Part shown: positions 3,860-27,300 of the stretch, piece by piece
Layout of the letters: every line of letters starts with the position of its first letter
How positions within the stretch are numbered: the first letter of the stretch is position 1
The notes under the pieces: model-generated
Databases searched by the model: none
The model's input: only the letters and a program-made list of their open reading frames with translations
Told to the model about the DNA's origin: nothing
Translations under genes and position numbers: made by a program
NCBI GenBank assembly: GCA_025457685.1
Contig: JALOTV010000010.1
Span: 1-32,094, forward strand
Length of the DNA stretch: 32,094 nt
Origin: Opitutaceae bacterium
GTDB lineage: Bacteria > Verrucomicrobiota > Verrucomicrobiia > Opitutales > Opitutaceae
Direction of reading: 5' to 3'

Positions 3860-4507
3860 TCAGGACGCCAACTGCCGACGGGTGAAGCCCTTTTCGATCG
3901 CGTAGCGGATGAGTTGGGGGGTCGATTTCAGGTCGAGTTTCGCCATGATGTTGTGCCGGTGATTGCGCACCGTGCGGGGGCTCAGGCCCAACTGGGTGGC
4001 AATTTCTTCGTTGGTTTTACCATAACCGAGGTGGCCAAGTAGTTCCATTTCCCTTTCGGATAGGATCTTGTCGAAGGATTTTGCGTCGGCTCGCATGCGA
4101 GCACGCGCCTGGTGGACGCTGGCGCTGGCGTAAAATTCTCCGGCGAGAACGTTGCGCATCGCCTCGTGAAGCAGGTCCAAGGTTTGGAGGTTTTTGTCCA
4201 CAAATCCGTTCACACCCGCCGCGAACGCCCTATGCAGGGTGTATTCGTCCGTGTGGGAAGATAGGGCCAGTAGCTTTATCTCGGGCGAGAGCGTGCGCAG
4301 GGCGGGTGCCAGCTCGAGCCCATCGCCATCCGGCAGCACGACGTCGAGGAGCACCAAATCGGGGAGATGCAGTCGACAGAGTGCTAGTCCCTCGCCCACC
4401 GTATCCGCCGCATGGATAGTGGCATCCGGGTAGGTCTGGCGGCAGGTCATGACCAGCAGCTCCCGGATCAAGGTTTGGTCTTCGATGATGACGAGCTTCA
4501 TGGACAC
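3860..4507 (-). CDS. NarL/FixJ-family response regulator (REC + LuxR-type HTH)
   Basis: MKLVIIEDQTLIRELLV...DLVLLDVVLPDGDGLEL...ALSSHTDEYTLHRAFAAGVNGFVDK, then LSEREMELLGHLGYGKTNEEIATQLGLSPRTVRNHRHNIMAKLDLKSTPQLIRYAI. Confidence 0.93.
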   Translation of the reverse strand: MSMKLVIIEDQTLIRELLVMTCRQTYPDATIHAADTVGEGLALCRLHLPDLVLLDVVLPDGDGLELAPALRTLSPEIKLLALSSHTDEYTLHRAFAAGVNGFVDKNLQTLDLLHEAMRNVLAGEFYASASVHQARARMRADAKSFDKILSEREMELLGHLGYGKTNEEIATQLGLSPRTVRNHRHNIMAKLDLKSTPQLIRYAIEKGFTRRQLAS

Positions 4508-4566
4508 ATAGGAGAGCGAGGGGGCAAGGGGAGGAGCGCGTTCTCGCGCACGGACAAACCAAGTGA

Positions 4567-5292
4567 TCAGGACGTCGTGTTGCCGGGGTTGGCCGAGGTT
4601 GTGCGCGATACCCCGAGGCAGGTGTCGAGGGCGGCCAACTCGTCTCGTATGGGGCGACCGAGGCGCAGTTGCTCGGCCAAGTGGCGAGCCGCCTCGTGGA
4701 TGGAAAGCGCTCCCACCATCCCCGAGAGCGATACGAGATTATGCAAGGCCCTCAGGGCGGATTCTTTGTGGCCCTCGCTCATGGCTTGGCCAAATTTCAC
4801 ACGCTCGGCGGCAAATTGCTCCTGACTGCGCCCGACCAACAGACGACGTGTGGCCTTTTGCTCGCTAACCATTTCCGGAAAATTGGGGCCGATTGCTCCC
4901 GTGGGCGCCGAAACCACGCGGGAAAGGATTTCTTTCAACTGTATGTTGGTAAATCCTTTGTGTAGTATGCCGGAAATCCCCAGGCGCAGGCAAGTCGCGC
5001 GGGTATCCGGGCTGTCATCCGAGGTGATCGCGATAACCGGCGGAGCCTCGCGTCTGCCAAGGATGGTCTTGGCGAGTTCGGCACCACTCAGGCCCGGCAG
5101 GTTCCAATCCACACACACGAGGTGAACGGTTTCTTGGTCCAGCCTTCGCAAGGCCTCCTCCCCGTCCAAAGCCTGAACCACGCGATAGCCCAGTTGCCGC
5201 AAGGCCACTGCGACAAACACCCGATCCAGCAGCACATCGTCGACGACAAGGGCGGTCAAAGCGGGGTTTCTTTCGCGATTCATGGGCGTCAT
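4567..5292 (-). CDS. Response regulator with receiver domain and HPt-like C-terminal helical region
   Basis: REC core ALVVDDVLLDRVFVAVALRQLGYRVVQALDGEEALRRL...LVCVDWNLPGLSGAELAK...VIAITSDDSPDTRATCLRLGISGILHKGF. The C-terminal ALHNLVSLSGMVGALSIHEAARHLAEQL resembles the HPt pattern HxLKGxxxxxGA with K/G substituted. Confidence 0.85.
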   Translation of the reverse strand: MTPMNRERNPALTALVVDDVLLDRVFVAVALRQLGYRVVQALDGEEALRRLDQETVHLVCVDWNLPGLSGAELAKTILGRREAPPVIAITSDDSPDTRATCLRLGISGILHKGFTNIQLKEILSRVVSAPTGAIGPNFPEMVSEQKATRRLLVGRSQEQFAAERVKFGQAMSEGHKESALRALHNLVSLSGMVGALSIHEAARHLAEQLRLGRPIRDELAALDTCLGVSRTTSANPGNTTS

Positions 5293-5765: not shown

Positions 5766-8700
5766 ATGAAAAACCATCACCGCATCCCGACGCGGGCCAA
5801 GTGGCTACTGTCACTCGGCGCGCTGTTAGCGACCGGGGTTTCTTCCGTGTGGGCCTTTACGCCCGCCGGAACCGAGATCCGAAACCAATCGACGGCGACC
5901 TACTTGGACGCCGCCAACACGCCCCAAATCGCGACCTCCAACGAGGTCATCAACACCGTCGCTCCGCTTTACAGCGTGGTCGTCACGCCCAACGCGACCG
6001 GCGCCACCGGCTTCTTTGCCTACGACGGCACCCCCGCGCTTACCCAAGTTTCCGCGCCGGGCAATGTCGCCTACTACTCCTACATCCTCGAAAACACCGG
6101 TAACGCCCCGGATCGCTTCAACGCCGACGTGCGCGCCCGCGCCGCCGGTGGTGCCGTCATCGCGCCTTCGGCCGCCGGCATCGAGATTTACTACGACGCC
6201 AACGGCAACGGCTTCGTGGACGCCGGTGACGTCCTCTTGGACAACAGCACCGCCGGTTCCGCCGCCGCCACCCCGATCGTCAACCCCGGCCAGAAGATCC
6301 CTCTCGTCGTCGCGGTTCACACTCCCTCCTCCGCCACCGCCGCCCAGCGCATCGAGACCGATTTCCAGGTCACCGGCGTGACCGGCTCGGCCTCGGACGC
6401 CGCTTCCAACTGGAACCGCACCACCTTCGCCCCCGGCGTCGGCGTCGTCACCGCCTACAAGTCGGCTGACGTCACCTCCGTCGCCCCCGGCCGCCAGGAC
6501 GTCACCTACACCATCCAAGGCTCCAACACCGGCAGCGCCGCCGTCAGCTCGGTGATCTTCGCCACCGGCGTGGACACGTCCGGCGATGGCGCCGAAGACG
6601 TGGTCGAGGGTATCCTGATCGAGGACGAACTCGACATCACCAAGATCGATGTCGGCGCGAACTACGCCAACATCAACCCCAACACCACCGGCGGCCAGAT
6701 CAGCCCCTCGACCGCCATTCCGCTGTTCTGGGACGATGCCAACAGCCTCTGGACCGCGACCAAGCCCACCCAGGCCGCGTCCACCAGCGCCGGCGACATC
6801 GGGAAATACAAAATCGCGCTCTTCATCCCCGACGCCGACTCCGTCGATAACACCGGCAACGGCGCCTCCGATCCCGTGCTCTCGCCCGGCCAGAGCTACC
6901 GCATGTCCTTCACTGTGGACATCCGCGCAGGCATCACGGCCACGACCCTCGAGAACGAAGTGTCCGGTCAATACGTCTCCGGCGGCGTGACCCGCGACTT
7001 CGAGTCCAACATCCACATCATCGAGATCGGTGGCGACGCCAGCACCACCACGGTGGACGTCGAGCTGAGTCCCTACACCTTCCTGAACGGCACCACGGCC
7101 AACCTTTCGGCCATCACCAACGGCGCGAACCGCGGCGCGCTCGAGCACCCGGGCGTGGACGCCCTCGGCTTGAACGCCAGCGCCGACACCACCTCGGCCG
7201 GTTCCGAGACGGATGCCGACGCGCATCGCAACGCCGGCACCACCGTCACGTTCCCGCTCACGTTGACCAACCCCGTCGCCACTTCCAGCGCCACGGATGT
7301 GTTCAACATCAGCATCGTGTCGGGCGTTCCCTCCGGCTGGGTCGCCACCGTGTTCAAGGCTGACGGCATCACGCCTCTGGCCGATACCAACGGCGACAGC
7401 CGCCCCGACGTGGGCGAGGTCGTCCCGGGTGGGGTCGTTGACCTCGTGGTCAAGGTCGTCATCCCCGACAACAGCCCGGCCGTGCCCGCCGCATCCGTCA
7501 TCACGGTGCGCGCCACCTCGGTGAAACGGGACGCCAACACCACCGTCGTCGCCACCGACGACACGCTCCTGCGCATCCCCGAGGTTCGCCCCGCCGGCGT
7601 CGACATCGCCATCCGCGGCCAGGTCTCCGGCGACAACTCCGTCCAGACCGCCGGCGATGCCTCCGCCGATGACGACGACGATGCCACCGGCACCGCCGTC
7701 CAGCCCGGCTCCAACGTCGCCTTCGCCATCCAGGTGGCCAACATGCGTAACCGGCTCCAGAACGCCCCGCGCACCGCGGACGAGACCACCACCGCCGTGG
7801 ACACCTATCAGTTGTCCGTGACCAAGAACGGTCCCGTGGCCACCACCTTCGACGTCGTGCTCTTCCGCGACCTCAACGGCGACGGTGTGCTCGACGCTTC
7901 CGAGCTGAATCCGATCTCGGACACCGGCTTCCTCAGCCCGGTCGCCACCCTCACCGGCGCGCCCCTGGCTGTCGGCACCGCGAACCTGTTCAACCTCCTC
8001 GCCCGTGTCACCGTGCCGAGCGAGACCCCCGCCGGCGACTACTTCGTGGACGTCACCGCGACCTCGACCAACCGCTCCGCTCAGACCGACACCATGCGTT
8101 TGCTGGTCCGCGTCGTGGCCGCTCCGTCGATCTCGGTCATCCCCGACAACACCGCCACCGTCGTTCGCGGCGGCTCGGTGACCTTCAAGCACGTCGTGGT
8201 CAACACCGGTAACACCACCGGCACCGTCCAGCTCAGCACCGCGTTCCCCGCCGGCCTCTTCCCGACCGGCTACACCGCGGTGTTCGTCAGCGACACCGGC
8301 GCCATCCTCGGCACCGACGGCGTCACCTACGTGACCCCCAGCCTCGCCCCGAACCAGTCCCAGGAGTTCTACGTGCGCATCTTCGTGCCCGCGAACGCCT
8401 CGGTCGGCGCCACCGTGCCCCTGACCATCACTGGTAGCGGCACCGCCGGCGGCGCCACCCTCGGCGCGGCCACCGACGACGCCGTGGACATCATCACCGT
8501 GATCGACGGCAGCCTCGACCTCCAGAAGACCAACTCGCCCACCGGCGCCGTCCTCCCCGGCGGCACCATCGGCTACACCACGGTCTTCAAGAACCTCGGC
8601 GGCGCCAGCATCACCGACGTCGTCGTGTTTGACGCCATCCCCGCCAACTCGACGTTCGTCGCCGGCTCCCTCGCTGCCTCCGGTCTGCCCGCCGGCGTCA

Positions 8701-8879
8701 CCACCACCCTCGAATACAGCACCAACAGCGGTGTCTCGTGGGTCGCGGTCGAGCCCGCCGCCGCCAGCGTCACCAACGTGCGCGTGAAGCTCGTTCGCAC
8801 CGCCGCCCTCGGCGTGCCGCTCAACGGCCTGCTCCCCGGTGAGTCCGGCAGCTTCACCTTCCAGGTGACCGTCAAGTAA
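5766..8879 (+). CDS. Secreted DUF11-like repeat surface protein (1037 aa)
   Basis: Signal peptide MKNHHRIPTRAKWLLSLGALLATGVSSVWA, then FTPAGTEIRNQSTATYLDAANTPQIATSNEVINTV. Repeated Ig-like motifs (TVVRGGSVTFKHVVVNTGNTTGT; DLQKTNSPTGAVLPGGTIGYTTVFKNLGGASITDVVVFDAIP). Several DxNxDG loops. Confidence 0.9.
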   Translation: MKNHHRIPTRAKWLLSLGALLATGVSSVWAFTPAGTEIRNQSTATYLDAANTPQIATSNEVINTVAPLYSVVVTPNATGATGFFAYDGTPALTQVSAPGNVAYYSYILENTGNAPDRFNADVRARAAGGAVIAPSAAGIEIYYDANGNGFVDAGDVLLDNSTAGSAAATPIVNPGQKIPLVVAVHTPSSATAAQRIETDFQVTGVTGSASDAASNWNRTTFAPGVGVVTAYKSADVTSVAPGRQDVTYTIQGSNTGSAAVSSVIFATGVDTSGDGAEDVVEGILIEDELDITKIDVGANYANINPNTTGGQISPSTAIPLFWDDANSLWTATKPTQAASTSAGDIGKYKIALFIPDADSVDNTGNGASDPVLSPGQSYRMSFTVDIRAGITATTLENEVSGQYVSGGVTRDFESNIHIIEIGGDASTTTVDVELSPYTFLNGTTANLSAITNGANRGALEHPGVDALGLNASADTTSAGSETDADAHRNAGTTVTFPLTLTNPVATSSATDVFNISIVSGVPSGWVATVFKADGITPLADTNGDSRPDVGEVVPGGVVDLVVKVVIPDNSPAVPAASVITVRATSVKRDANTTVVATDDTLLRIPEVRPAGVDIAIRGQVSGDNSVQTAGDASADDDDDATGTAVQPGSNVAFAIQVANMRNRLQNAPRTADETTTAVDTYQLSVTKNGPVATTFDVVLFRDLNGDGVLDASELNPISDTGFLSPVATLTGAPLAVGTANLFNLLARVTVPSETPAGDYFVDVTATSTNRSAQTDTMRLLVRVVAAPSISVIPDNTATVVRGGSVTFKHVVVNTGNTTGTVQLSTAFPAGLFPTGYTAVFVSDTGAILGTDGVTYVTPSLAPNQSQEFYVRIFVPANASVGATVPLTITGSGTAGGATLGAATDDAVDIITVIDGSLDLQKTNSPTGAVLPGGTIGYTTVFKNLGGASITDVVVFDAIPANSTFVAGSLAASGLPAGVTTTLEYSTNSGVSWVAVEPAAASVTNVRVKLVRTAALGVPLNGLLPGESGSFTFQVTVK

Positions 8880-8971: not shown

Positions 8972-11900
8972 ATGCTTAAACTGCCTCCAGTCTCCGCCTG
9001 GATTCGACGCGTCTCGATTCTCGGCCTGGCGATCTTTGGCCTCCTGTCCTCGGGTGTTTCACCTGCGGCCCGGGCGGTCACGCCGGCCGGCACCGAGATC
9101 CTCAATCAGGCGACCGCCACCTTCGAGTGGCTCGGTCGCGCCCACACCGTCACCTCCAACCTGGTGTCCAACTCCGTGCTGCCCGTGCATGGCCTGGTCA
9201 TCAAACCCGATGGCACCGTGCCCGCCCCCGGCCTCCTGGCCACCGCCAGCCCCGGCGCGACGGTTTACCTGCCCTACACGTTGCTCAACACCGGCAACAC
9301 CACCGACAGCTTCCGCCTGTCCCTCGTTTTTCTTCCCGATTCCAGCTCCTTCGAGCCCCTCGATCGTCGTCTCTTCATCGATCTCGATGGCGACGGCGTG
9401 CTCTCGCCGCAGGAGGCCTCCGTGTCCATCGATCGCGTCGACCGGGTGCCCGCCGGCGGACTGGTCTATCTCATCGCCCAGATCCGCATCCCGGCCAACA
9501 CACCCAACGGCGCGCGCGCCTTCTTTGATCTCCGGGGCCGCTCCCTCGCCGACGCCACCGCGAGCGACGAGAGCAACATCGCCCGCATCACCCTCTCCGA
9601 GGATCCGGTGCTGCGCCTGCGCAAGTCCTCCGACCGCCCCTCCGTGCTCGTTGGCGGCGTCGTCACCTACACCCTCGACGTGCTGCACGTCTCCGGCTCG
9701 CCCGCCCTCGGTGACCTGTCGGTGGTGGACGGCGCGCCGCGCCGCGGCATCACTCCATCGACGACGGCCTCACCTGGCGCTCCTTCTCCGCACTCGGCGG
9801 CGAACCGCCCGCCGCCTCCGTCACCCATGTCGGCGTGCTTTTCCCCGGCCCCTTCTCCGCCGGCCAGTCCGCCCGCGCCCGTTTCCAGATTCGCGTCGCC
9901 CCCGACCACGCGCCCGGCCGCATCGGCAACCGCGCCGACTTGCGCTACCGCGCCGCCGACGAGCGTCTGCTCACCGACGCCTCCACCAACGAGATTTTCG
10001 TCGAGGTCCTCCCCGCGTTCGAAGGCGTCTTCATCGGTCCCGAGGCCGATCCGCGCCGCGTCGGCGAGACCAGCACCAACGACGACTCGACCCTCGACGG
10101 AGGTGTCAATTTCGACGCCGTCGGCCCTTACCAGGTGGTCGGCAATTTCGTCTTCTTCCGCAACACCATCGAGAACGCCTCCGCCGTGTCCGACGTCATC
10201 AACATCGACGTCGTCGCCGACGACTCCCAGTTCACCGCCGCGCCCGCCCCCGGCGCGCGCTCCGTCCGCGCGGCCCGCGTCTCCGCCCGCCAGCAAACCA
10301 ACCTGCCCGCCGGCTGGATCGTCCAGGTGCTCAGCGCGGACGCCAGCCGCACCCTGCTCGACACCAACGGCGATGGCGTGCCCGACGTCGGCGCGCTCCC
10401 CCCGGGCGGCCGCGCCGATGTCGTCGTGCGCGTGCTCATCCCGCCCGGTTACGTGCCGCCTCCCGCCCAGCCCGCCGCCTGGCAGGTCCTCATCCGCGCC
10501 GCGTCCGCCGCCGCGCCCACGCGGGCCAACCTCACCATCAACCGCATCCCGCGCGTCATCTTGGTCCAGGAGTTTTGGCGCACCTTCGGAAAAACCTTCG
10601 ACGCGCCGGCCGTCATCCTGCCCGGCACCGCCATCACCTACACCAACCGCTTCGGCCATGGCGGCTCCTCCTCCGTCACCAACGTCGTCATCATCGACAA
10701 CCTCAGCGATCGCCTGGTCAACGCCCGCGACATCACCACCGGCTCCATCACCAGCCTCGATGGCTCCCTCACCCTCACCGGCGTCACCGCCGCCTACGAT
10801 GCCGCCGCCAATCGCATCGTGTGGAACATCCCCGTAGTGCCGCCAAATTTCGTGGGCGAGTTGCGCTTCACCGCAGATGTCGCGCAGGGCACCCCCGGCG
10901 GCACCGAGATACCGAACGAGTTCACCATCCAGTCCGATCAGTCCACCGCCGTCCGCGTCTCCAATCTCGTCTCCACCGTGGTCAACGCCCCCGCCGTTCT
11001 CACGGTGGAAAAGGAGGTCAACCGCGAGAACGCCTCCATCGGCGACCCCGTTCTCTACACCGTCACCGTCACCAACGCCGGCCCCGTGCCGCTCATCTCC
11101 GGCGTGTCGCTGGTCGACGATCTGCCTCGCGGCTTCCGTTACCTGCCGGGCTCCGCCCGCCTCGAGGGCGCGCCGCGCGAGCCCGTGATCGATGCATCCG
11201 GCACCAGCCTCACCTGGCCGCTTGGCGATCTGGGCCTGGGCGAATCCCGCGTCGTCACCTACGTCACCGTCGCGTCGGTGGACGCGCTCGAGGGCGACGG
11301 TCGCAACGTCGCCACCGCCACCGGCACCTTCCCGGGCGGCGGCGTCGGGGTGGCGAGCGACGTCGCCGTGGTCAGCCTCGAGGGCGGCCCTTTCGCCAAC
11401 CGCAGCGTGATCCTTGGCCGCGTCTTTGTGGACGAAAACGCCGACGGCGCCTTCACCCCCGGCGAGCGCGGCCTCGCCGGCGTGCGCCTCGTGCTCGACG
11501 ACGGCGTCACCGTGCTCACCGACCGCGACGGCCTCTACCACATCGAGGGCGTCACGCCGGGCGTGCGCGCCTTCCGCCTCGACGAGAGCACCCTGCCACC
11601 GGGCCACACGCCCGTCGTGCTCGATTCCCAAAACGCCCTCAACCCCTCCTCCCGCTTCCTCGACCTGCGCTTCGGCGTCCTCCACCGCGCCAACTTCGCC
11701 GTGCTCCCGCCCGCCGACCAGATCGTGCGCATCGAAAAAACCCCGCCCACCGACGCCGTTTTGCTCGAGCCGTCCTTCCTCTCCGAAAACGGCGTCACCC
11801 ACGTGGTCGCGCGCTGGAACGGCGAAGCCCGCCCCACCCACCGCATCGACCTCAACACCGGCACCGTGTCCGTCTTTTTCCCGGGCATGATCAAGACCGG

Positions 11901-14900
11901 GCGCAAAACCAACCAGCCGGTCGATGAGCTCAACGTGGACCGCTACCGCATCCACACCGACCACGACGCGGGCTACACCCGGCTGGATATCCGGCTGCGC
12001 AAACGCACCTCCGGCTACCCCGCCGACTACGTGCGCGTCGCCCCCGCCGGCGACGGCGAGCTGCGCATCAGCGTGGGCGGGGCCGCCATCCCCGACGACG
12101 ATGAGGCCGCCCGCGCCTCCGCCGCCGTCGAGACCGCCATCCACGCCGTCGGCACGCCCGAGCCCGCCGCCGAGCTCGCCGCGCTTCAGGGCCCCGTCGT
12201 CCACGAACCCGCCGAAGGCACGGCGTTCATTTCCCGCGACAAGATTTCCGTGCGCGTCAGCGCCCACCTCGCCTCCGCCTTCGAACTCTACGTCAACGAC
12301 CAGCCGGTCTCGAAGGAACAGATCGGCGAAAAGAGCATCCACGTGAAGGCCCGCCGCTCCTTCTACGAATACGTCAGCGTGCCCATCGAGCCCGGCCCCA
12401 ACAAACTGCGCTTCGAGACCAAGGGCCCCTCCGCCCAGGAGACCGGTGTCGTGGAACTCACCGTCTTCCGCGCCGCCGATCCGGAGAAAATCGAGCTCGA
12501 GGTCGCCGACGACCAGCTCGTCGCCGACGGCCGCACCGAGCCCGTGGTGGGCGTGTCCCTGCGCGACCGCAACGGCCTGGCCACCGGTGAATCCACCGTC
12601 ATCACGGTGGAGATATCCGGCGGCCAGATCCTCTCCCCCGACTTCCGCCCCATGGAGCCCGGCCACCAGGTGCAGATCCGCGAGGGCCGCGCCCTGCTCC
12701 GCCTCAGCGCCGCCAACCAAGCCGAGACGCGCATCGTCACCGTCATCGCCGGCCGCCTCCGCCACCGCGCCGACCTCGTGCTCCGCCCCGCCCTGCGCGA
12801 CTGGATCCTCGTCGGCTCGGCCGACGCCACCGCATCGCTCACCGAGAGCCGCGAGGCCGCCTCCCGCACCCGCGCCCTGCGCGAAGAAACCCGCGAAACC
12901 ATCGAGTCCGGCCTGCGCGTCTTTGGTCAGGGCCGCTTCGTCGCCGATACCCTCCTCACCTTCAGCTACGACTCCGAACGCGCCTACGACGACTACCCGA
13001 TTTTCCGCCAGTTTCAGGAGGACGACTACTATCCCGTTTACGGCGACACCTCCAAGATTTTCCCCGAGGCCGCCTCCCGCGCCAAGCTCTACGCCCGCCT
13101 CGAAAAGGAGCAGTCCTACCTCATGTTCGGCGACATCGACACCGAGATGCAGGAGACCGAGCTCGCCGCCCACTCCCGCCGCCTCACCGGCGCCAAGGCC
13201 GACATCAAGACCGACTGGATCGACTTCAAGGGCTTCGCCTCCCACACCGAGCAAGCCCGCGTGCGCGAGGAGATCCCCGCCGGCGGCGTGAGTTACTACC
13301 AGCTCCGCGACCGTGACGTCATCCCGGGCTCCGACGAGATCTGGCTCGAGGTTCGCGACCGGGCCCGGCCCTCCGAGGTGCTCCGCCGCGAGCAGCTCTC
13401 CCGCGGTCGCGATTACAGCTTCGACTACAGTTTCGGCCGCATCCTCTTCAAGCGCCCCATCACCTCGCGCGACGAGGATTTCAACCCGCAGGTCATCGTC
13501 GTGAACTACGAGAAAGACGGCCGCACCGGCGACAAACAATACACCTTCGGCGGCCGCCCCGCTCTGCACGATCCCGACCGTCGCGTCACCGTCGGCGCCA
13601 CCTACCTCGAGGAGGAGAACGGCTTCTTCTCCGACAAGGTCGAGGGCGTGGACGCCACCGTGAAGCTCGACGAAAAAACCGCCCTCCGCGGCGAATACGC
13701 CGAGACCAACACCCTCGACGAGGGCTTCGGCCGCGGCCACCTGGTCGAGCTCAAGCGCGAGGAGGAAAAGACCTCCTACCGCGTCTACCACTCCGACCTC
13801 GACGACACCTTTGACAACCCCGGCCTGCGCGGCTCCCCTGTCGGCCGCCGCCTCACCGGCGCCGAGGCCGTGCACTACTTCACCCCGCGCGTCTCCGGCG
13901 AGCTCGAGGCCTACGACCAGATCGACGTCGTCGGCGGCCGCACCCTGCGCGTCGGCGTCGCCGACATGGTGTATGAAGGCGACAACTACAAACTCGGCGC
14001 CGGCGGCGGCTACGTCACCCAGGAGGAGGACGCCTCCTCCTCGCTCGGCGCCGCCGAGCGCGAGAGTCCTCTCCTCCGCCTCCAGGCCGGCTACGCCTTC
14101 AACAGCCGCATCGACATCGAGGGCGAATACCAGCACGCCTTCGGCGACCGCGACACCGAGCAGCCCACCCGCGGCGCTGTCACCGTCGGTTACCAGGTGT
14201 TTGAAAACACCCGCCTGCTGTTTGGCGTCGAGCGCCGCTACGTCACCGGCGAGGGCATGGCCGACAACCTGCTCCTCGGCACCGAGGTCACGGTCAACGA
14301 CTACGTCTCCGTCTTCAACAAATACGAGCTCGACGCCGGCCAGTCCGGCCAGGCCGGCCGCGCCAACTCCGGCGTCGCCTTCAAGTATCCCCTCCGCCCC
14401 GATCTGCGCGTGGACCTCACCGCCGAGGCCAACAACACCGTGCACGAGACCGGCCGCGCCCCGATCGGCCGCGAGTTCTGGTCCCTCGCCAGCGGCTTTG
14501 AATACACCCCGTCCGATGCCGATCACACCCTCGTCGGCCGCCACGAATACAAATGGCAGCCCGATCGCCGCGAACACTTCAACGAACTCGGCGGCACCGT
14601 GAAGGTCCTCGACGACCACACCGCCTTCGCCCGCAACCGCCTCTCCTTCGCCGAGGTCACCTCCCCCGACCAATACGACGAGTGGATCGCCCGCGTGCTC
14701 TTCGGCTGGGCCTACCGCCCGCTGTTCGAGGACCGGCTCAACGTCATCTCGTCCTTGGAATTCAACTACGAGCGCACCGCCTCCGCCAACCTCGCCCGCA
14801 TCCAGGACGTCTTGTCCTCCCACGAGTTCACCTACCAGACCGCGCCGGACTGGATCATCGAGGGCAAATACGCGGTCAAGGCCGCCTGGGGCGACTTCCT

Positions 14901-15279
14901 CGACGACACCGTCTGGACCGACGTCAAGGCCCTGCGCCTGCGCCACGATTTCACCAAGCGCTTCTACGGCGCGGTCGGCGCCCGCCTGCTCAGCCAATAC
15001 GAGACCGAGGTCCACACCCTTGGCTACGGCGTCGAGGCCGGCTGCATCATCCGCAAGGATTTCATCATCGCCCTGGGCTGGAACTTCGAGGGCTTCCACG
15101 ACCGCCGATTCTCCGCCGGCGACCACTGGGAACAGGGCGCCTACGTCGCCTTCCGCGTGAAGTTCGACGAATCCCTCTTCGGCGTGCTCCGCCAGCTCCG
15201 CGGCCGCGCCAACGCCGATGCCGACGCCGCCGGCTCGTCCACCGCCTACAACCTCAACGCCGCGCCCTCCGCGCCCTGA
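8972..15279 (+). CDS. DUF11 / SdrD-B-like / outer-membrane beta-barrel surface protein, apparent frameshift at ~9715-9757
   Basis: 5' part in frame 8972 (signal peptide, VTPAGTEILNQATATF...LGDLSVVDGAP); 3' part continues in the frame of ORF 9835-15279 (HSIDDGLTWRSFSALGGEPPAASVTHVGVLFPGPFSAGQ...). Frame B has a stop at 9712-9714, so the two parts cannot be one unshifted ORF. The 3' part is otherwise intact for >1800 codons. Confidence 0.82.
11395..11610 (+). other. SdrD B-like / Cna-B-like domain within the 8972-15279 protein
   Basis: NRSVILGRVFVDENADGAFTPGERGLAGVRLVLDDGVTVLTDRDGLYHIEGVTPGVRAFRLDESTLPPGH. Confidence 0.75.
12790..15225 (+). other. C-terminal outer-membrane beta-barrel region of the 8972-15279 protein
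   Basis: DDYYPVYGDTSKIFPEAASRAKLYARLEKEQSYLMFGDIDTEM...GVSYYQLRDRDVIPGSDEIWLEVRDRARPSEVLRREQLSRGRDYSFDYSFGRILFKRPITSRDEDFNPQVIVVNYEKD, then alternating amphipathic strands to ...GAYVAFRVKFDESLF. Confidence 0.75.
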
Positions 15280-15302: not shown

Positions 15303-18300
15303 ATGCCCCGTCTCCGCTCCAGTTTGGCCCGTCTCCTCGCCTTCCTGTTCTGGGTGTTTTTGCCCGTCTTCGCCGGCGCGCAGACGCTGCGTCTCAACGA
15401 GCTGGCGATCGCCGGCGCCGAGTTCGTCGAGCTCGACTACACGGGCTTCAGCACCCCGCAAAACCTCTCCGGCTATGCGCTCGTCACCGCCGGCCCGGGC
15501 GCTTCCGCCGGGTTCGCTCTGCCATCCTTCACCCTCTCCGGCTCCGGCCGCGTGGTGGTCTACACCGGCGCCGGCGTCGCGTCGGGCAACGTGCTCTACC
15601 TCGGCCGGCCCGGCCCCATCCTCGCCGACGGCGGCGATTCCGTGCTCATCCGACGCCTCTCCGACTCCGCCGCCATCGATTATTTCTCTTGGGGCAGCGA
15701 GGTCGCCGCGCCCCCGTCGCCGCTGGTATTCGCCACCAGCTACAACACCGGCGACGGCTTCTATGCGCCGGGCGACTCCCTCGCCTACATCGGCACCAAC
15801 CCCGACCTCGCCGCCCACTGGATCAATCGCCGCGGGGCCAACATCACCCCGGGCGCGGCCAATACCGTGCAGACGCCGCCGACCTTCGCCTACAATGTCG
15901 CCGCGCCCGCGGACATCGATTCGTGCGAACTCATCCCGCTCGCCCTGACGTTTACCCACACCGACGAGGCCCCGCTGCGCGGCACCACCCTTTCGTTCAC
16001 CCTGCCGGCGGGCTTCCTCTACGCGTCCGCCAGCGACGGCGGAGTCTTTAACAACGCCACCCGCACCGTCACCTGGACGCTTCCAGTCAGCCTCGCCGCC
16101 AACACCTTCGCGCGCACCGTGGGCGTGCGGCCCGACACCGCCGTCACCTCCGGCGCCTTCCCCGCCGGCAATCTTGCGTATTCATATTCTCGCTACGTCG
16201 GTGGTCCCGCGGTCCCGGGCTCCGGGGCCAACGCGGTCGATCCTTTCGCCGTCGCCCGTCCCGATCTGTCCGTCTCGGTGGCTGATTTCTCGGCGCCTTC
16301 CCAGCCCTACATCATCACCCAGGGCTCCGGGGTGGTGGCCCTGCTTGTGCGCGTCGCCAACGCCGGCCCGGGCGAGCTCGCCGGCGACGGCGCGACCGTC
16401 GCCCTCGATCTGCCCGCCAATCTCTCCCTGCTCACCGCCCGCATCGGCGGCCCCACCGGCTCGTCCGTCCTCAACCTGGTCTCCAACCTCGCCACCCAGG
16501 AGCACAGTTTCTCCACCGGCGTCATCGCCGCCGGCGCCTCGCGGGATTTCTACATCCAGGCGCGCGTGGACGGTTGCGGCGACCTCTCGCCGGTCATCGA
16601 CGTGAGCTTCGGTTGCTCCGACGCCGCCCCCGGCGCCGTGACGAGCGAGATCGCGCTGCCGACCGTCACCTTCCCCATTTACTGCGACGTCGAGCTGGCC
16701 ATTTCGTATCCGTCTGGCACCTACACCGCCGGTCAGCCCATCCCGGTCTCGGTCACCCTGACCAACCGCAACAACAACGCGCTCGACCCCGCCGGCCTCG
16801 TCCTCGCGTTTCACCCCGGCTTCTTTGTCGATTCGATCAAGCGGAGCGGGCTCGACGTCGGCGTCTACGATCCCGCCGCCCTGCCGGAAAAAACCATCAC
16901 ATTCAGCGCCGCCGACCTGGGCGGCGTCCTGGCGGGCAACTCCACCACCACGCTCGACATCGTGCTGCGGCCGTCCCCCTCGCTGCCCAACGACCGCAAG
17001 TTCACCGCCTCTCTCGGCTACACCGTGCCCGCCCTCGGCCCCACGCCGGTCCTCCCCGTGACGCGCCAAAGTCTGGGCGTCCAGGCGGTCCAGCCCGGAC
17101 TCACCGTCTCGCTCGAGGATCCCGCCGCCCCGGGCAGCACCACCGTGCTCGCCTCGCGCGGTGACGACGTCTTGTTCCTCGTCACCGTGCTCAACAACGG
17201 CGCGGGCAATCTCAATCAGGACGGCCCCGATCCCGACGCCTTGCCCGACGGCGCCTTTGTCGAGATCGCCGGCACGGGCGGCGCCTTGAATATCCTCCAG
17301 GTGCGCGACGTCACGGGCCTCGCCGGTCCCTACACCCCGACCAGCGGCGTGCCCGTCGCCTTGGGCGTCAACCCCGCCAACTCGCGCCAGCGCTGGAACA
17401 CCGGCGCGGTCAACGCCGGCCCGGCCGGCGCCAAACGCTACATCCTGGTCGTCTCGGTCGAGGACTGCGTCGGTCTCGAGGCCGAGCTTGATTCCTACTG
17501 GTCGGTGCAGGGCGCCCTTCTGCCCGCCATCGACACCGCCACCGTGTCGGCCGAGAGCGCGGGCTCCGTCGACATCGTGCTGCGCACCCCGGAGCTCTCC
17601 ATCGTCGCGCCGGCCTTCACCGTGGATTATTGCGCGGGCGTCTCCACGAGCGTCACCTTCGCCAACGCCGCCGGCGCGGGGCCGGTCCGCAATCTCGTCG
17701 CCGCCGTCACCGGGCTCAACCTCACCGCCTACGACGTCGTCGTCACGAGCGGCAATTTCACCTTCACCCCGAGCTACGCCAACCCCGGCCATCCCGCCGA
17801 CGGCCGGCCCGCCTTCGTCCTCATCGGCGGTCAGGACACCGATGGGGACGGCGACGCCGACGATCTCGATGCCGCCGCCTCCGCCGTCCTCACCTACCAA
17901 GTCTCGGTCAAGACCGGCGGCGTGGCCTGCTCGCCCGCCGGGGCCGGCCTGGTTTACCAGCCCTACTACGAGGACGACTGCAACATCCCCTGGACCGCCG
18001 GCACCCGCCTGAGCTCCTACGGCGTCACCACTCCGCCCGGCATCGCATCCGATTTCGACGGCCCCGACTTCGCCGACGTCAACGCCTCCGGTCTAACCTA
18101 CGACTACTCGTTCCGCTACCGCGGTGCGCCCGGCGCCCCGTTCCGCTACACCCTGGTCATCGCCTACCCGCTGGGCTTCGCCTACGCTTCCGTCACGCCC
18201 GCCATCGTCGCGCCGTCCATCCTCACGCACAACGCCCTCGCTCGCACCGTCACGGTCGAGATCGACGACGTGTTTGACGCTTCCGGCGACTATGCCGCCG

Positions 18301-21300
18301 ATTTCGCCTTCCTGTTCGACGCCCCGACCGACAACTGCGCCGCCGGCCAGTCCTACACGTTCACCTACAACCTCACGGTCACCGATCCCGCCGATCCCAC
18401 CGACTGCAACGATTGCCCCCAGACCGAGGACTTCAACGGCAGCCAGACCACCACGCTCAACAACGACGACGAGGACGCCATCGTCGCCCATAACCGCGAG
18501 GTCACCTACCTGAACACCCACCTCAACGGCGACCCCATCACCCACGGCGCCGCCGAGACCTGCACCGAGCTCGTCATCGACCACTACCTGCGCTTCTCCC
18601 CCTCCGCCCCCGCCAACTGGTTTGTCAACGTCTCCGGCGTCGATCGCCCCCTCGTCTTCGACGAGACCTTTTTCAACAACTACGGCATCCCCAACGGAAA
18701 CCTCGCCGATCTCCAGCTCGAGGTTTACTACTTCGCCTCCGCCGGCACGCCCTCCGCCCCCTCCGGTCCCAACTACGGCCCCACCGGCTCCGGCCTCGTC
18801 TCCCTTTCCGACATCAATAACCTCAGCCCCACCGGCGAGGGCTTTGATCGCGTGAAGATCGACCTCGACGGCCTCCAGGCCCTCGGCGGCCCGACCAGTC
18901 GCCCCAACGACGGAGGCTGGCTCTGGTTCCGCTACCGCATGGCGGTGAAGAGCAACACCACCCTCGGCGGCACCATCGAGTTCGCCGACCTCGAGATCCC
19001 CGTCCTGCTCGGCCTGTGCAACGCCGACGATAAAAACGAATTCCGCCAGGCCGTCGTCTTAAACGCCGCCCGCTCCGCCGCCACCGTCTCCATCGCCAAC
19101 GTCTCCGGCTCCGATTCCCGTGTCGTGGACCGCTGCGAGCCCGTCACCTTCCGCCTCGAGATCGGCAACCAGGGCTCCACCCCCTTCGACCTCTACGACA
19201 CCCGCGTCGTGCTTGATCTGGGCAACATCAATCCCACCACCAACCGTTGGGCCTACGATCCCGCCACCGCGGCCGTCTCCTTCGTCGGCCTCAAGAACGC
19301 GGCCACCAACACGCCCCTCGCCGCCTTCGCCCCCGTCGTCTCCGGCCCCAACGACTCCATCCTCACCTGGAACCTGGGCGACCTGCGCGAAGCGTATTTG
19401 CCCGGCACCTACATCGAGCTCACCCTCAACAAATCCTGCGACGAGGCCGGCACCGCCCTCTCCGCCATCGCCTACTCGCGCGACCGCTGCGCCAACGCTC
19501 CCGACCTCGGTCTGCCGTCCGTGCCCTCCGCCACCGGCGGCGGCAACTTCACCACCGCCAACAACGCCAGCTACGCCCCGTCCCTCGACGAGGGCGTGCT
19601 CTCCGCCCTCTTCACCACCGAGCTCGTTTACTACAACGACGGCTACCCGCGCATCCGTTTCGACGTCGTCAACTCCGGCAACGGCGATCTCTACAACGTC
19701 AAGATCCCCGTCCGCCTCGGCGACAACGCCCGCCCGCTCTCCCTCTCCTACGTCTCCTCCCGCGTCGCCAAGGTCGCCGGTGCCGTCACCTTCCCGGGCG
19801 GAGGCGCCCTGACCACGGGCGCCAACTTCCCCGCCTGGATCCTCGGCACCGAGGACGACGCGGTCCCCGTCGTCGCCGGCGCCGACGACGCCGAGCGCGA
19901 GGTTGTCTTCTCCATCGGCAAGTTGCCCAGCGGCGCCCTCGTCACCGTCGAGGTCACCCTGCGCATGCACCTTTGCCAGGACCTCTTCGCCACCATCCTG
20001 CCCGAGACCCGCTGGGGCTGCTTGGGCTCCGCCTGCGGCGCCAACATCGAGACGACCAAGCAGCGCATCAACATCGCCCAGGGCAACACCCGCGTCTTCG
20101 TGCTCGAACACAGCGCCGACCCCGCCGTGCTCGATTTCTGCGGCTCCCGCACCCGCTTCACCATGGAGATCGTCAACGTCGGCGCGGTGGACGTTTACGA
20201 GCCCATCATCCGGGAACAACTCCCGCCCGGCCTCACCCTCGTGCCCGACTCCGTCCGCTACGCCGTCGATAGCGGCTCCGGCTACGGCGCCACCACCTAC
20301 GACGCCATGACGCCCTTCCCCGGCGGCGGCTCGCGCTACACCTCGCTCACCGGCACCGGCTCCGCCGCTTCGCCCCAAGTCATCACGTGGAACTTCACCG
20401 ACCCCGACGACGACGACAGCGAATCCGACTCCCTGCTCGTCGGCGCCGCCCATCTGGACTCTCGCCCCACCGACCCTAATTTCACCCGCCACCGCGTCCT
20501 GCGCCCCGGCCAGCGCATCCGCGTCATGTTCGACGCCGAACTAGTCGCCACCGGCGACTGCGCCAACGCCCTCGCCTACTTCAACTCCGACCGCAAGGCC
20601 GAGGCCACCATCCTCTTCGACCTGCCGTGTAATCACGACAACACCGTCACAGCCTCCGGCTCCCCCGCCAGCCCCTCCCCGCGCGGCCCGCTCAACGCCG
20701 ACACCCGCGACTCCAACTTCCTCGATCCCGGCGCCGCCGACGTGCTCCTCGCCCTCGCCGGACAAAACACCACCCAGGCCGCCGCCCTCACCACCGCCCA
20801 AGTAAACGGCGAAACCGGTGACACTGTCGAGTGGACCTTCACCATCGAGTCCCTCGGGCCCGGCGTCGTCCCCGACGCCTCCCTCCAGGTCTTCCTGCCG
20901 TCCAACCTCACCTTCGTCTCCGCCGCCATCATCAGCGGCCCGTCCAACATCACCCTCGACACCGCCACCCCCGCGCCCGTCGCCGAGCCCGGCGGCGCAC
21001 GCCGCACCTTCACGTTCAACAACACCAACCCCTTCATGATCGCCCAGGGCCGCGCCGACTACCTCGACGCCAGCGGCACCATCACGATCAAGATCGTCAC
21101 CACCATCAACACCTGCGCCGAGGATCTCGTCGGCGTCGAGGGCACCTTCGCCTGGGGCTGCTGCCAGGGCGTCCCCGGCCTTGAAGACGCCAACGGCTCC
21201 GTCAGCGCCTCCGTGGACGTCAAGACCGTGCCCGACGCTCCCGTCGTCAGCCTCGCTTCCGGCCCCATGCCCACCCAGGTCGCCTTCTCCACCTGCGGCG

Positions 21301-24300
21301 GCTACCTCGACATCACCCTCGTCAACCCGAGCACTAACCGCGAGCTGTCCTTGCGCGACTTCGACCTCGCCGTTCCCGTGCCCACCGGCTTCGCCTACGA
21401 CGCCTCGATCGACGGCGCCACCTGGACCTACTCCCTCACCGGCGGCGGAGTCTCCCCCCGCGTTGCCGCCGCCGCCGAGCTCACCCCCGCCGAGGAGGAG
21501 CCGCAGATCGACGGCTCCTTCCTCCGCTGGCGCTCCCAGGCCAATTCCGGCCTCATCCCCGCCGCCAAGGCCCGCCTCTTCCCGCGCGAGACCGTCGTCA
21601 TACGCGTTTACTTCAAGCTCCAGGCCGGCGGCCCCTACTGCGACACCAACCCCGACTCCGACCCGTCCATCCCCAATTTCAACCAGCTCGCCACCTTCAA
21701 CCACACCGATTCCTGCGGCAACCAGCGCCCAGTCAGCCTCGCCAATCTCTCCATCGACCCGCGCTCGCCCAACCTCAACGTCGCCATCACCCCCGTCTCC
21801 GGCCCGGCCTTCATCACCGCCTCCACCACCACCGTGGAGTGGACCCTTACCCTGCAAAACGCCGGCGACGCCCCCGCCGGCGAGTCCGCCCTTCTCGCCA
21901 CCTTCGGCGCCGGCTACACCGGCGTCAGCATCACCCCGCTCGGCGGCGCCCCCGCCCCGACTTCCTCCTCCGGCAACACCTTCACCTGGGATCGCGGCGA
22001 CCTGCCCGTGCTCTCCGTCTCCGGCTCCTCCGGCGACACCCTCCAGTGGCGCGTCACCGCCACCGTGAACACCGTCTCGCGCGGCGATCTCTCCGGCGTG
22101 CTCGATACCAACGGCTGGTGTCTCGACCGCGCAGGAAACGACGTCTGTAATTACTCGCTGGATACACGCCGCGGCTACGTCTCCGGCGGCACCATCGAGA
22201 AGGTCATCGACGGTCTTTCCCTCTCCGCCCCGGCCGTCTCCACCCCCGCGGCAAACGATCCCGCCGCCAAGACCGCCGACCTGACCATCGGCTCCATCGT
22301 GCGCCACCTCATCACCGTCGAGCTCTTCGAAGGCGGCGCCACCGATCTCCGCGTCGAGGACCTCATGCCCGCCGGCTTCGTCTTCCTCGAGGCCTCCGCC
22401 CGGCGCGGCGTCTCCGGCGGCTGGACCGCGCTCACCAATTCCGGCACCGGCCAGCGGCTCGTCTTCACCGGCCAGCCCATCCTCAACGCCATCACCGGCG
22501 CGGCCACCGTCGTCGACGGCGACGCGCTCTACGTCGAGGTCTGGAGCCGCGTGGGCGACCTCGCCGCCAACGCCTCCGGCGGCTCCAAGGTCAACACCGC
22601 CACCCTCACCATCAACCGCGGCACCGGCCTTGGCGCCATCAGCTACACCCACGACAGCCCCGCCGGCGTCGACCTGCGCGACACCACCACCATCACCTTG
22701 ATCGAGCCCGAGCTCACCTCGCCGACCAAGACCTCCGTGCCCGCCTCCGGCACCTCCGGCACCCCCAACGTCATCAACCTCGCCACCGACCCCGCCTCCA
22801 TCGCCTACACCCTCACGGTGGAGAACACCGGCGACGCCCCCGCCTACGAGACCGTGCTCATCGACGCCGTGCCCTTCGGCCTCGTCGTCTCCTCCGCCAC
22901 CGTCACCCGCAACGCGGAGGCCCCGCTTGTGCTCGATACCCACTACACGTTCGCCTTCGTCGCCGGCGTCGGTGGCAACCCCGGCACCCTGACCGTCACC
23001 CTGCTCGACCAGGCCCTCGCCGTCCTGGCCCCGAACGATGTGCTCACCGTCGCCTACACCGCGTCCATCGCCGGCGCCGCCCCGGGCCAGGAACTGTTCA
23101 ACCTCGCCACGTTCAACACCTCCAGCCTCCCCGGCACCGGCGCCGCCAAGACCACCGCCCGAGGCACCGCGTTCCTCGAGGCCGACGACGAGCGCACCGC
23201 CTACCTCACCGCCGAGGTCCGCACCTTCCACCAGATCTTCGGCGTGTTGGAGCGGTCCAAGGGCGTGAAGAACGAACTCACCCTCGCGGCCGGCGCCGCT
23301 GCGGCGGACACCTATCGCTTCCCGCCCGACGCCACCACCCGCGCCACCATCGGCGAACTCGTCACCTACCAGGCCCGTCTCAAACTCCCTCCTTTTGTCA
23401 CCATCTACGACCTTCGTTTCCAGGACACCGTGCCCGACGGTCTCACCGTGCGCTCCATCAAGTGGGAACTCGTGCCGCGCGATGGCGCCCTCACCGTCGC
23501 CGCGCTCGATATTCCCATCCCCGCCCAGTCCTCCGGCGCCACCCCGATAAACCACCTCCACAGCTCGACCACCAATCCCTTCCCGGGCTCGCTCAACGGC
23601 GGCTCCACCCCCGGTAGCGATCTGTTGGTCGAGATCACCGCCACCGTCGACCAGCAGCTCAACGGCGGCACCGCCATCGCCGCCCAGAGCTTCGCCAACA
23701 CCGCCACCTTCAGCTGGGGTGATTTTTCCGGCGACACCACCCGCACCACCCTCGCCACCGACGCCGTCTCGTTCAGCGTCCTCGTGCCCAACATCCTCCC
23801 CGCGAGCGTCACCAAAATCGCCTCGGAATACCGTCGTGAGGACGGCGCCACCGTCTTCACCCCCTCTACGGTCACCGTCGTCAATCGGCTCTCCGGCACC
23901 CCGACTTTCCGCGGCATAAACGACAACGCCAACGCCACCGGCGTGCCTGTCGTCGCCCCGGGTGAGTTCGTCCAATACCGCGTCCGCGTGGTCAATTCGG
24001 GCACCACCACGGCCTACGCCGTGCAGGTTTACGACGTCGTCCCGCGCACCACCGTCGAGGACTTCGCGGTCGGCGCGCCCTACGGTCTCGAATACACCGA
24101 TTTCGGCGGCCTGCTCCCGCCTTCCGTCGTCGCTTCGTCGGGCACGAGCGCCATCCTCACCGGCCCCGCCTTCGTGCAAAACGAGCTCACGCTCACCCTC
24201 GACCAAGTCGCCGCCGGCGCCACGGTGGACGTGTTTTTCTGGATGCGCGTCCGGTCCGATGTCGCCGCGTCGCTGCACTTCGGCAACCGCGCCCGCGTGC

Positions 24301-27300
24301 TCGACTACCGCACTCTGCCCGCCGCCGGCGTCGCCTTCCCCGCCGAGGCCCGCACCAGCTCGTCCACCCCCGCGTTCGCCGCGATTCCCTTCGCCGCCGC
24401 ACGCGATGTCGGCCTCGCCACCGCCGCGCCCGTCTTCACCACCACGTTCCAGAGCGACATAACCGATCCCTCGCCCGATACCGCCCTGTCCGTCGACACC
24501 GGCCGCGCCACCATCGGCGAGGAGGTGGTGCTGCGCCAGACCATCGACCTGCCCGCCGGCCTCGCCCTCTACGAGTGGCGGCCGCGCAACAACCTCACCG
24601 GCCATGATGTCGACGCTTGGGTCGTCCCGTCCGGCCTCACCGTGCGCCGCGTCACCTTTACTTTCGGCGCCGACGCGGCCATCGACCTCCCCGCGGGCAA
24701 CATCACCGTCAACGCCGGTTCCGGATCCACCCGCATCGCCCGCCCCGCCACCCTCGCCGGCGCGCCCGCCGGCTACCCCGATCTGCTCGCCACCGCCATC
24801 TCCACCCCGGGCGGCGAGCCCGAGTTCACCCTCACCGTTTACGCCACGGTCAATGGCGACAGCCTCGCCGCCACGCCCATCCGCATCACCAACGGCTCCG
24901 GCTCCGCCACCATCGTGGATGCGGGCGATACGCTCTCCCTCGTCCCCGTCCATCGCTGGGCCCAGTGGGATGGCATCACGGCCAATCTCAACCAGGCCGC
25001 CGCCCCCACCCGCGCCTTCGGCATCGTCGAGCCCGGCATCACCAACGTCTCTTTCACCAAGACCCGCCTCACCGCCGCCACCTCCGGCACCGGCGTCAAC
25101 TTCACCAACTTCTACGGCGAGGGCCCGCTCGCCCTCGCCCCGCAAAACCCCGTCCCGTCCGTCCCGCTCTTCACCGATGGCGACGTCATCACCTACCGCA
25201 TTCAATACACCAACTCCGGCACCGCCCCCGCCTACGGAATCGAGGTCATCGACCGCATCCCCGCCGGCCTGACGTTCAACCCCGCCTCCCCGGTCGTCAC
25301 GTCCGAGACCGGGGGCACCGGCACCCTCACCGCCGCCGTCATCGCCTCCGCCGCCATCGCGCCGACCGACGCCAACTACTCCACCAACGTCCGCTTCACC
25401 GTGGACCGGCTCGACGTCGGCGAGACCGTCCAGTTCACCTACACCGCCACGGTCAACGATCCGGTCGCGGTCGGCCGCTACCTGCAAAACCGCGCCGACC
25501 TCTCCGATTATTCCACCCTGCCCGCCGGCTACGTGAGCACCCAGACGCCCGCCACCGCGGGCGTGGTCGAGGCCAACGAACGCGACACCGACTCCGCCAA
25601 TCCCTATGTGGACCGCGGGCCGGTCTGGGCTTTCGCCGGCATCGCCGACAACAACGTATCCAGCAAAACCCTACAAACCGAGCTCACCGCCCCCTCCGGC
25701 AAGCTCTCCAACGGCACCTCCCGCGCCACTCCGGGCGAGCTCCTCACCTACGAGCTCACCGTGGACATCCCGGATGGTCGCGTCCTGCACGACTTCTATC
25801 TCTTCGACGAACTGCCCGACGGCACCACCTTCGTGCCCGCCCTCACCAGCTATGCGCTCAACGGCGTGACCGGCCTCACCGCCGGCATCGTGCACGATGG
25901 CAACCGCCGCTTCGGCCTCGCCCTCGGTGATCTCGCCGGCACCGCCGCGGCCAACGAGCTCGTCGTGACCCTGCGCGCCACCGTGGACCTCGTGCGCGAC
26001 ACCGCCGCCACCCCGGTCGTGGCCGGCGCGACCTTGGGCAACTCGTTCACCTTCTCCTGGAACCAGGTGGACGTGGACCCCGATCCCGTGGTCAACCTCG
26101 CCACCGACGCCCGCACCACGGTCAATTCCGTCACCGTCGGCCCCGTCGTCCTCCAGATCCAGGAGCCCGATCTCGACGCCTCCCTGGCCAAGACTCAGGC
26201 CAACGTCCAGGAGGCCGGGGTGATCGGCTCGCCCGCCGCCTCGCGCGGCACCGCCGCCTACTACGCCTACGATGCCGCCGGCTCCACCGTCACCACCGTG
26301 GCCGGCGTGGAGTCGACCCTGCCCGACGACCGCGTGGTCTACACCCTCTCCGTCACCAATTCCGGCGCGTCCCCGGCCTTCGACATCGCCTTGCGCGACC
26401 TGCTCCCGGCCGACGACGGCGTCACTTACCAGAGCGGCGTCGGCACCGTCGTCGCCGGCTCCGCCCTGCCCGGCGCCCTCGGGGCCGACTTCGCCGGCTC
26501 GGCCGGCAGCCGCCTCACCGTCGCCACCTCCTCCGCCGTCAACCCCGCCGGCGAGACCGCCACCCGGCTCGACTTCACCATCGATTTCCTGCTTCCGGGC
26601 GAGACCGCCACCATCCGCTACGTCGCCCAGGTCGATCGCGGCATCGGCGCCGGCCACTACCTGGGGGCCAATTCCGTCAACCTGCGCGACTACGGCTCCC
26701 TGCCCGCCGCCGCTCTCGCCGTGTCCGTGGGCAACCTCGCCGCCGGCGATCTCGTGCACGACAACGCCCTCGAGCGCGACACCGACTCCTCCGTCGCCCC
26801 CTACGCCAAGCAGGGCCCGGTCGTGCGCCACCTCGGCGTGGTCTATCCGACTTTGGCCAAGTCAGTCTTCCGCCTCTACGACGCGGACGGCTCCCACGTC
26901 CCCGCCGCCGTCGCCGCCGACGAGGTCCTGCGCGTGGGCGACATCCTGCGCACCGAGCTCTCCGTCACCCTGCCGCGTTACACCCGCCTGTTCGATGGCG
27001 GTGTATCCGCCGTGCGACTACGCGACGTGTTGCCCGCCGGCCAGTCCCACCTCGCCGCCACCGTCGAGGGCGTGACGTATCCGGATTACAACGACGACAC
27101 GCTCGATCTCTCCGGCTTCGCCCCCGCCGTCTCCACTCCCGCCGCCTCGGGCGTGCAGACCGTGAATTTCGACTTCGCCGACGTCGTCAACTCCACCGGC
27201 GCCGCTCTCACCGGCACGGTGAAATTCCTCAGCGACATCCGCCCGCTCGCCGCCGACGGCTCCGATTTGCTCGCCTCGACCACCGGCCAGCTTTCCGGCG

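Follow-up and report, generated by a model that had tools for sequence, protein, structure and literature searches.

On the 32-kb stretch of DNA analysed here (the window, which is the entire contig C190), the gene for a large surface protein, gene B, runs in two reading frames. The question is whether the organism itself carries a broken gene or whether the break belongs to the assembly. The source assembly, a draft, comprises 426 contigs with a total of 3.55 Mb; it is 77.5% complete, and its DNA has a GC content of about 68%.

Gene B lies between two other large genes. Gene A (5766–8879, + strand) encodes a 1037-aa protein with a module related to that of gene B at its C-terminus, and the giant gene (15303–29342, + strand) encodes about 4680 aa of DUF11 repeats in a single open frame, with a related module near its end. 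Both modules provided yardsticks within the locus. The same order of a DUF11-like gene A, gene B, and a very long open frame was also observed in genus and family relatives. Together, the three genes (5766–29342) form a cluster for large surface proteins that is conserved but occurs in few of the family's genomes. Two response-regulator genes, one of them LuxR-type, are located at 3860–5292 on the reverse strand, divergent from the cluster, and they possibly regulate it. Literature searches returned nothing on this locus or on this type of lesion in short-read drafts.

At the level of reading frames, the first ORF runs from the ATG at 8972 to 10837, and the second frame, with its last upstream stop at 9715–9717, is open from there to 15279. 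Both frames overlap from 9718 on, with a switch of −1 from the first to the second. In a codon-usage score for which the neighbouring genes served as training set, the frame of 8972 rates as coding until about 9710 and that of 9751/9835 from about 9770, which places the switch within 9710–9770, and the best split in a seven-state Viterbi model fell at 9749/9750. By both measures the coding frame changes inside gene B, as in a frame-disrupted orthologue. The original prediction had described this frame switch, and reading frames, codon usage and the Viterbi split all bear it out. Beyond the switch, the first frame is open to 10837 with out-of-frame sequence rich in P, S, A and T. No second lesion was found within the roughly 2100 codons of gene B.

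The downstream frame, open for more than 1800 codons, had also been taken as a sign of an artefact, a very recent mutation or phase variation. A young lesion or an error does fit such a frame, but its length is weaker evidence than it looks, because GC-rich antisense frames of 1000–1900 codons are present in the window and in relatives too. It is the codon-usage signal together with homology, rather than the length of the open frame, that carries the case.

For the homology, we searched the 3′ part of gene B against 252 genomes of the family and found relatives in 13 of them, counting the genome of the window itself. At all 12 family loci fetched, the homologue was uninterrupted, a single frame that measured between 1574 and 2399 codons; a contig end truncates one of them. 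At five of these twelve loci, the window's 5′ and 3′ parts both match one and the same frame. No close relative turned up when contigs were scanned with the 3′ part, which limited the comparison of the junction to the protein level. The two parts belong to a single gene.

The alternative would be a gene fission, giving two independent genes, with the start of the second near a GTG at 9835. This position does offer a possible start codon. However, the split is absent from all relatives fetched, the break falls within a domain and would orphan both halves, the upstream frame runs on for 365 out-of-frame codons past the break with no stop there, and inspection revealed no apparent export signal after 9835. 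We consider a fission extremely unlikely.

The 5′ part of gene B (8972–9739, + strand) keeps the original frame and contains an N-terminal signal-like stretch, a first region, and the first half of a DUF11-like module, ending in ...SVVDGAP; it was delimited from codon usage, the module profile, and matches to gene B of five relatives. After the junction (9740–9750, + strand), where the frame changes, the 3′ part (9751–15279, + strand) continues in the shifted frame with the rest of the module, a further DUF11 repeat, an SdrD_B-like stretch, and a conserved C-terminal region. Its basis is codon usage, the models PF01345 and TIGR01451, and single-frame homologues in twelve other genomes of the family. 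Both models score above their curated cut-offs in the 3′ part: PF01345 with 59.3 bits against 24.6 (E = 5.7e-16), and TIGR01451 with 65.4 bits against 24 (E = 3.3e-18). Roughly 2100 residues long, the product of gene B is a surface protein with DUF11 repeats. Its C-terminal region (12001–15276) had no match among NCBIfam models, Pfam models or PDB sequences; within the family it retains about 30% identity across 1000 residues, and a structure prediction without an alignment gave a mean pLDDT of 30.

The DUF11-like module at the break is incomplete and split over the two frames. Of the 158 profile positions, the 5′ part matches 16–75 (residues 195–253) and the start of the 3′ part matches 120–158, and the stretch between them is about 14–15 codons too short. 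The break is inside the domain, since the 5′ part ends at module position 75 and the 3′ part begins at 120. These matches are weak (10.9 and 4.9 bits), yet they stand in the right order and place, and in relatives gene B has the complete module at the corresponding position. The profile interval alone would not prove a loss: positions 75 to 120 span a median of 40 residues in 53 module matches, and the range of 23–48 covers short modules as well as the 25.7 residues of the window.

As a yardstick, we counted the residues that separate the P of the D..P motif from the H/R after 'LY' in eight orthologues. The spacing is 18 residues in seven of them and 20 in the other; in the window it is 11 nt (9740–9750), which gives a net loss of about 43 nt, or 49 by the outlier. 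This orthologous spacing is decisive for a loss, and a conserved segment of the first DUF11-like module is gone. The spacings within the locus, 24 residues in the 1037-aa protein and 19 in the giant protein, had been counted correctly and belong to paralogous modules. The loss of 45–60 nt proposed earlier holds as a matter of some tens of nucleotides, with 43 nt at or just below its low end. Module profile and orthologue spacing lend good support to a deletion of 3n+1 nt of this order with loss of frame. The 3n+1 length is no independent evidence, because the frame change already implies it.

The loss had been attributed to overlapping GC palindromes at the junction. Palindromes are indeed present, GGCGCGCC at 9731–9738 and CCGCGG at 9742–9747, but not beyond what chance would give: for the first, the window has 6 copies where 6.2 would be expected, and for the second 29 where 56 would be. 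Single-strand folding of the junction is no better than that of shuffles (z of −0.83 and −0.26, DNA parameters), and about 14% of 1500 random places in the assembly fold as strongly. As a cause of the loss, the palindromes find no support in these counts or in a fold and GC content that are usual for this genome; the junction stretch is ordinary for DNA of 68% GC.

The same stretch bears on two further readings. Programmed −1 frameshifting would join both frames into one product, and the overlap from 9718 and the direction of the switch speak for it. However, no slippery heptamer was seen on inspection of 9718–9750, the junction folds like its shuffles, no relative uses such a mechanism, and the missing domain segment would stay unsupplied. 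We give it an almost negligible probability. Surface proteins are often phase-variable, and the junction contains a 5-nt unit, GCGCC, in about two and a half copies, so that a population in which gene B is on in some cells and off in others comes to mind. These are just short imperfect repeats rather than a true repeat tract, however, and what was lost is a conserved domain segment and not repeat units, at a place where orthologues have no tract. Phase variation is very unlikely, and it is equally improbable that the short junction is real in part of the population, with a recurrent small deletion switching the giant surface-protein locus off in some cells. Among the options that the original prediction had left side by side, an artefact or a very recent mutation fits, and phase variation has no repeat tract to support it.

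To place the lesion among others of the same draft, we ran a frame-switch detector on 447 kb of the assembly, with the window left out, as well as on sampled sequence from three genus-mates. It found 10 in-gene switches in 390 kb of coding sequence here (L036, L042, L045, L047, L050, L078, L085, L097, L098 and L104). In a closed genus-mate, 329 kb of coding sequence had 1 switch, which makes the rate in this assembly about 8 times higher (p = 0.015). Of two draft genus-mates, one had no switch in 88 kb and the other 2 in 236 kb of coding sequence, each with p = 0.23 against this assembly at a low sensitivity of the detector, and missed events may account for part of the difference from these drafts. 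Of planted one-base deletions, the detector caught 25 of 59 in this assembly and, in the controls, between 4 and 11 of 20, and all rates are lower bounds. Eight of the ten switches are on contigs under 7 kb (115 kb). The other two are on longer contigs (2 in 276 kb), a rate not clearly above that of the controls.

In at least four of the ten switches, a Pfam domain seems to have lost codons, an estimated 10, 10, 30 and 14. The genes concerned are two sulfatases, a dienelactone hydrolase, and a xylose-isomerase-like protein. These losses were computed by hand from the Pfam profile coordinates on either side, and they are rough, as families vary in length. The same kind of lesion, tens of nucleotides lost together with a frame change, recurs in unrelated genes of the assembly, and this recurrence favours an error of assembly or consensus. 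GC or hairpin content as a common cause found no support: the junction and the ten other sites were unremarkable, with no significant difference between all these switch sites and random places in GC (p = 0.31) or folding (p = 0.16). No repeat elsewhere in the assembly that could mislead the assembler at the junction was found, and the assembly has the junction sequence only once.

A second feature of the draft concerns murD. An intact copy lies on contig C30 (8580–9800), and a broken one on the 3.5-kb contig C40 (2861–3286). We had considered the latter as proof of a falsely broken essential gene, and dropped the argument because of the intact copy on C30. C40 more likely represents a second strain or a contaminant, and the presence of two copies makes mixed-strain or contaminant contigs in the bin probable.

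A real and recent deletion, by slippage or by recombination between short repeats, would make gene B a null allele, that is, a young pseudogene. A lone lesion in an otherwise open gene suits a young event, the long contig of the window has few other lesions, and gene B is dispensable in the genus, being present in only 1 of the 14 genus-mates searched. Set against this, the same type of lesion affects unrelated genes of the assembly, concentrated on short contigs. We hold a real deletion to be a substantial possibility, though less likely than an error.

We favour an assembly or consensus error as the origin of the loss of about 43 nt, with a probability of roughly 0.6; this figure and our rating of the null allele are judgements and not computed values. 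The net deletion in the first DUF11-like module of gene B removes one conserved segment and shifts the frame; on this view it arose as an error in a fragmented and probably mixed-strain draft, and the organism itself most likely has an intact gene B. The intact orthologues, the lone lesion, the excess of switches over a closed genus-mate, the four similar domain losses, the 426 contigs of the draft, and the second murD suggest an artefact. Counting against it are the 32-kb length of the contig, the rate on long contigs near that of the controls, the lack of a significant difference from the two other drafts, and the unique junction.

Taken as real, the sequence would yield an N-terminal fragment that ends in an out-of-frame tail, the C-terminal part would lack an export signal of its own, and the locus would hold nothing more unusual than a null allele, in a gene for a surface protein of patchy distribution. 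The main bearing of this analysis is on annotation: the draft is unfit for claiming that gene B has been lost, split or made phase-variable. In-gene frame switches occur about once in every 40 kb of coding sequence, a rate that is a lower bound because the detector missed over half of the planted deletions, and caution applies to reading other broken genes of this draft as biology. The break in gene B is an ordinary finding, and its likeliest cause is an assembly error.

Compared with known systems, gene B shares with bacterial surface proteins of the DUF11 (PF01345) and TIGR01451 (B_ant_repeat) type a repeat that exceeds the curated cut-offs, and it resembles its family orthologues of this type in length and in the order of its parts. 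Unlike these repeat proteins elsewhere, gene B of the window lies in two frames, with about 43 nt of its first module gone. Like young bacterial pseudogenes, it has one frame-breaking deletion and is open in the remainder. It is likewise similar to the frameshifted genes of fragmented drafts, having lost both tens of nucleotides and its frame as one of several such genes, whereas most other lesions of this draft are on short contigs and that of gene B is on a long one.
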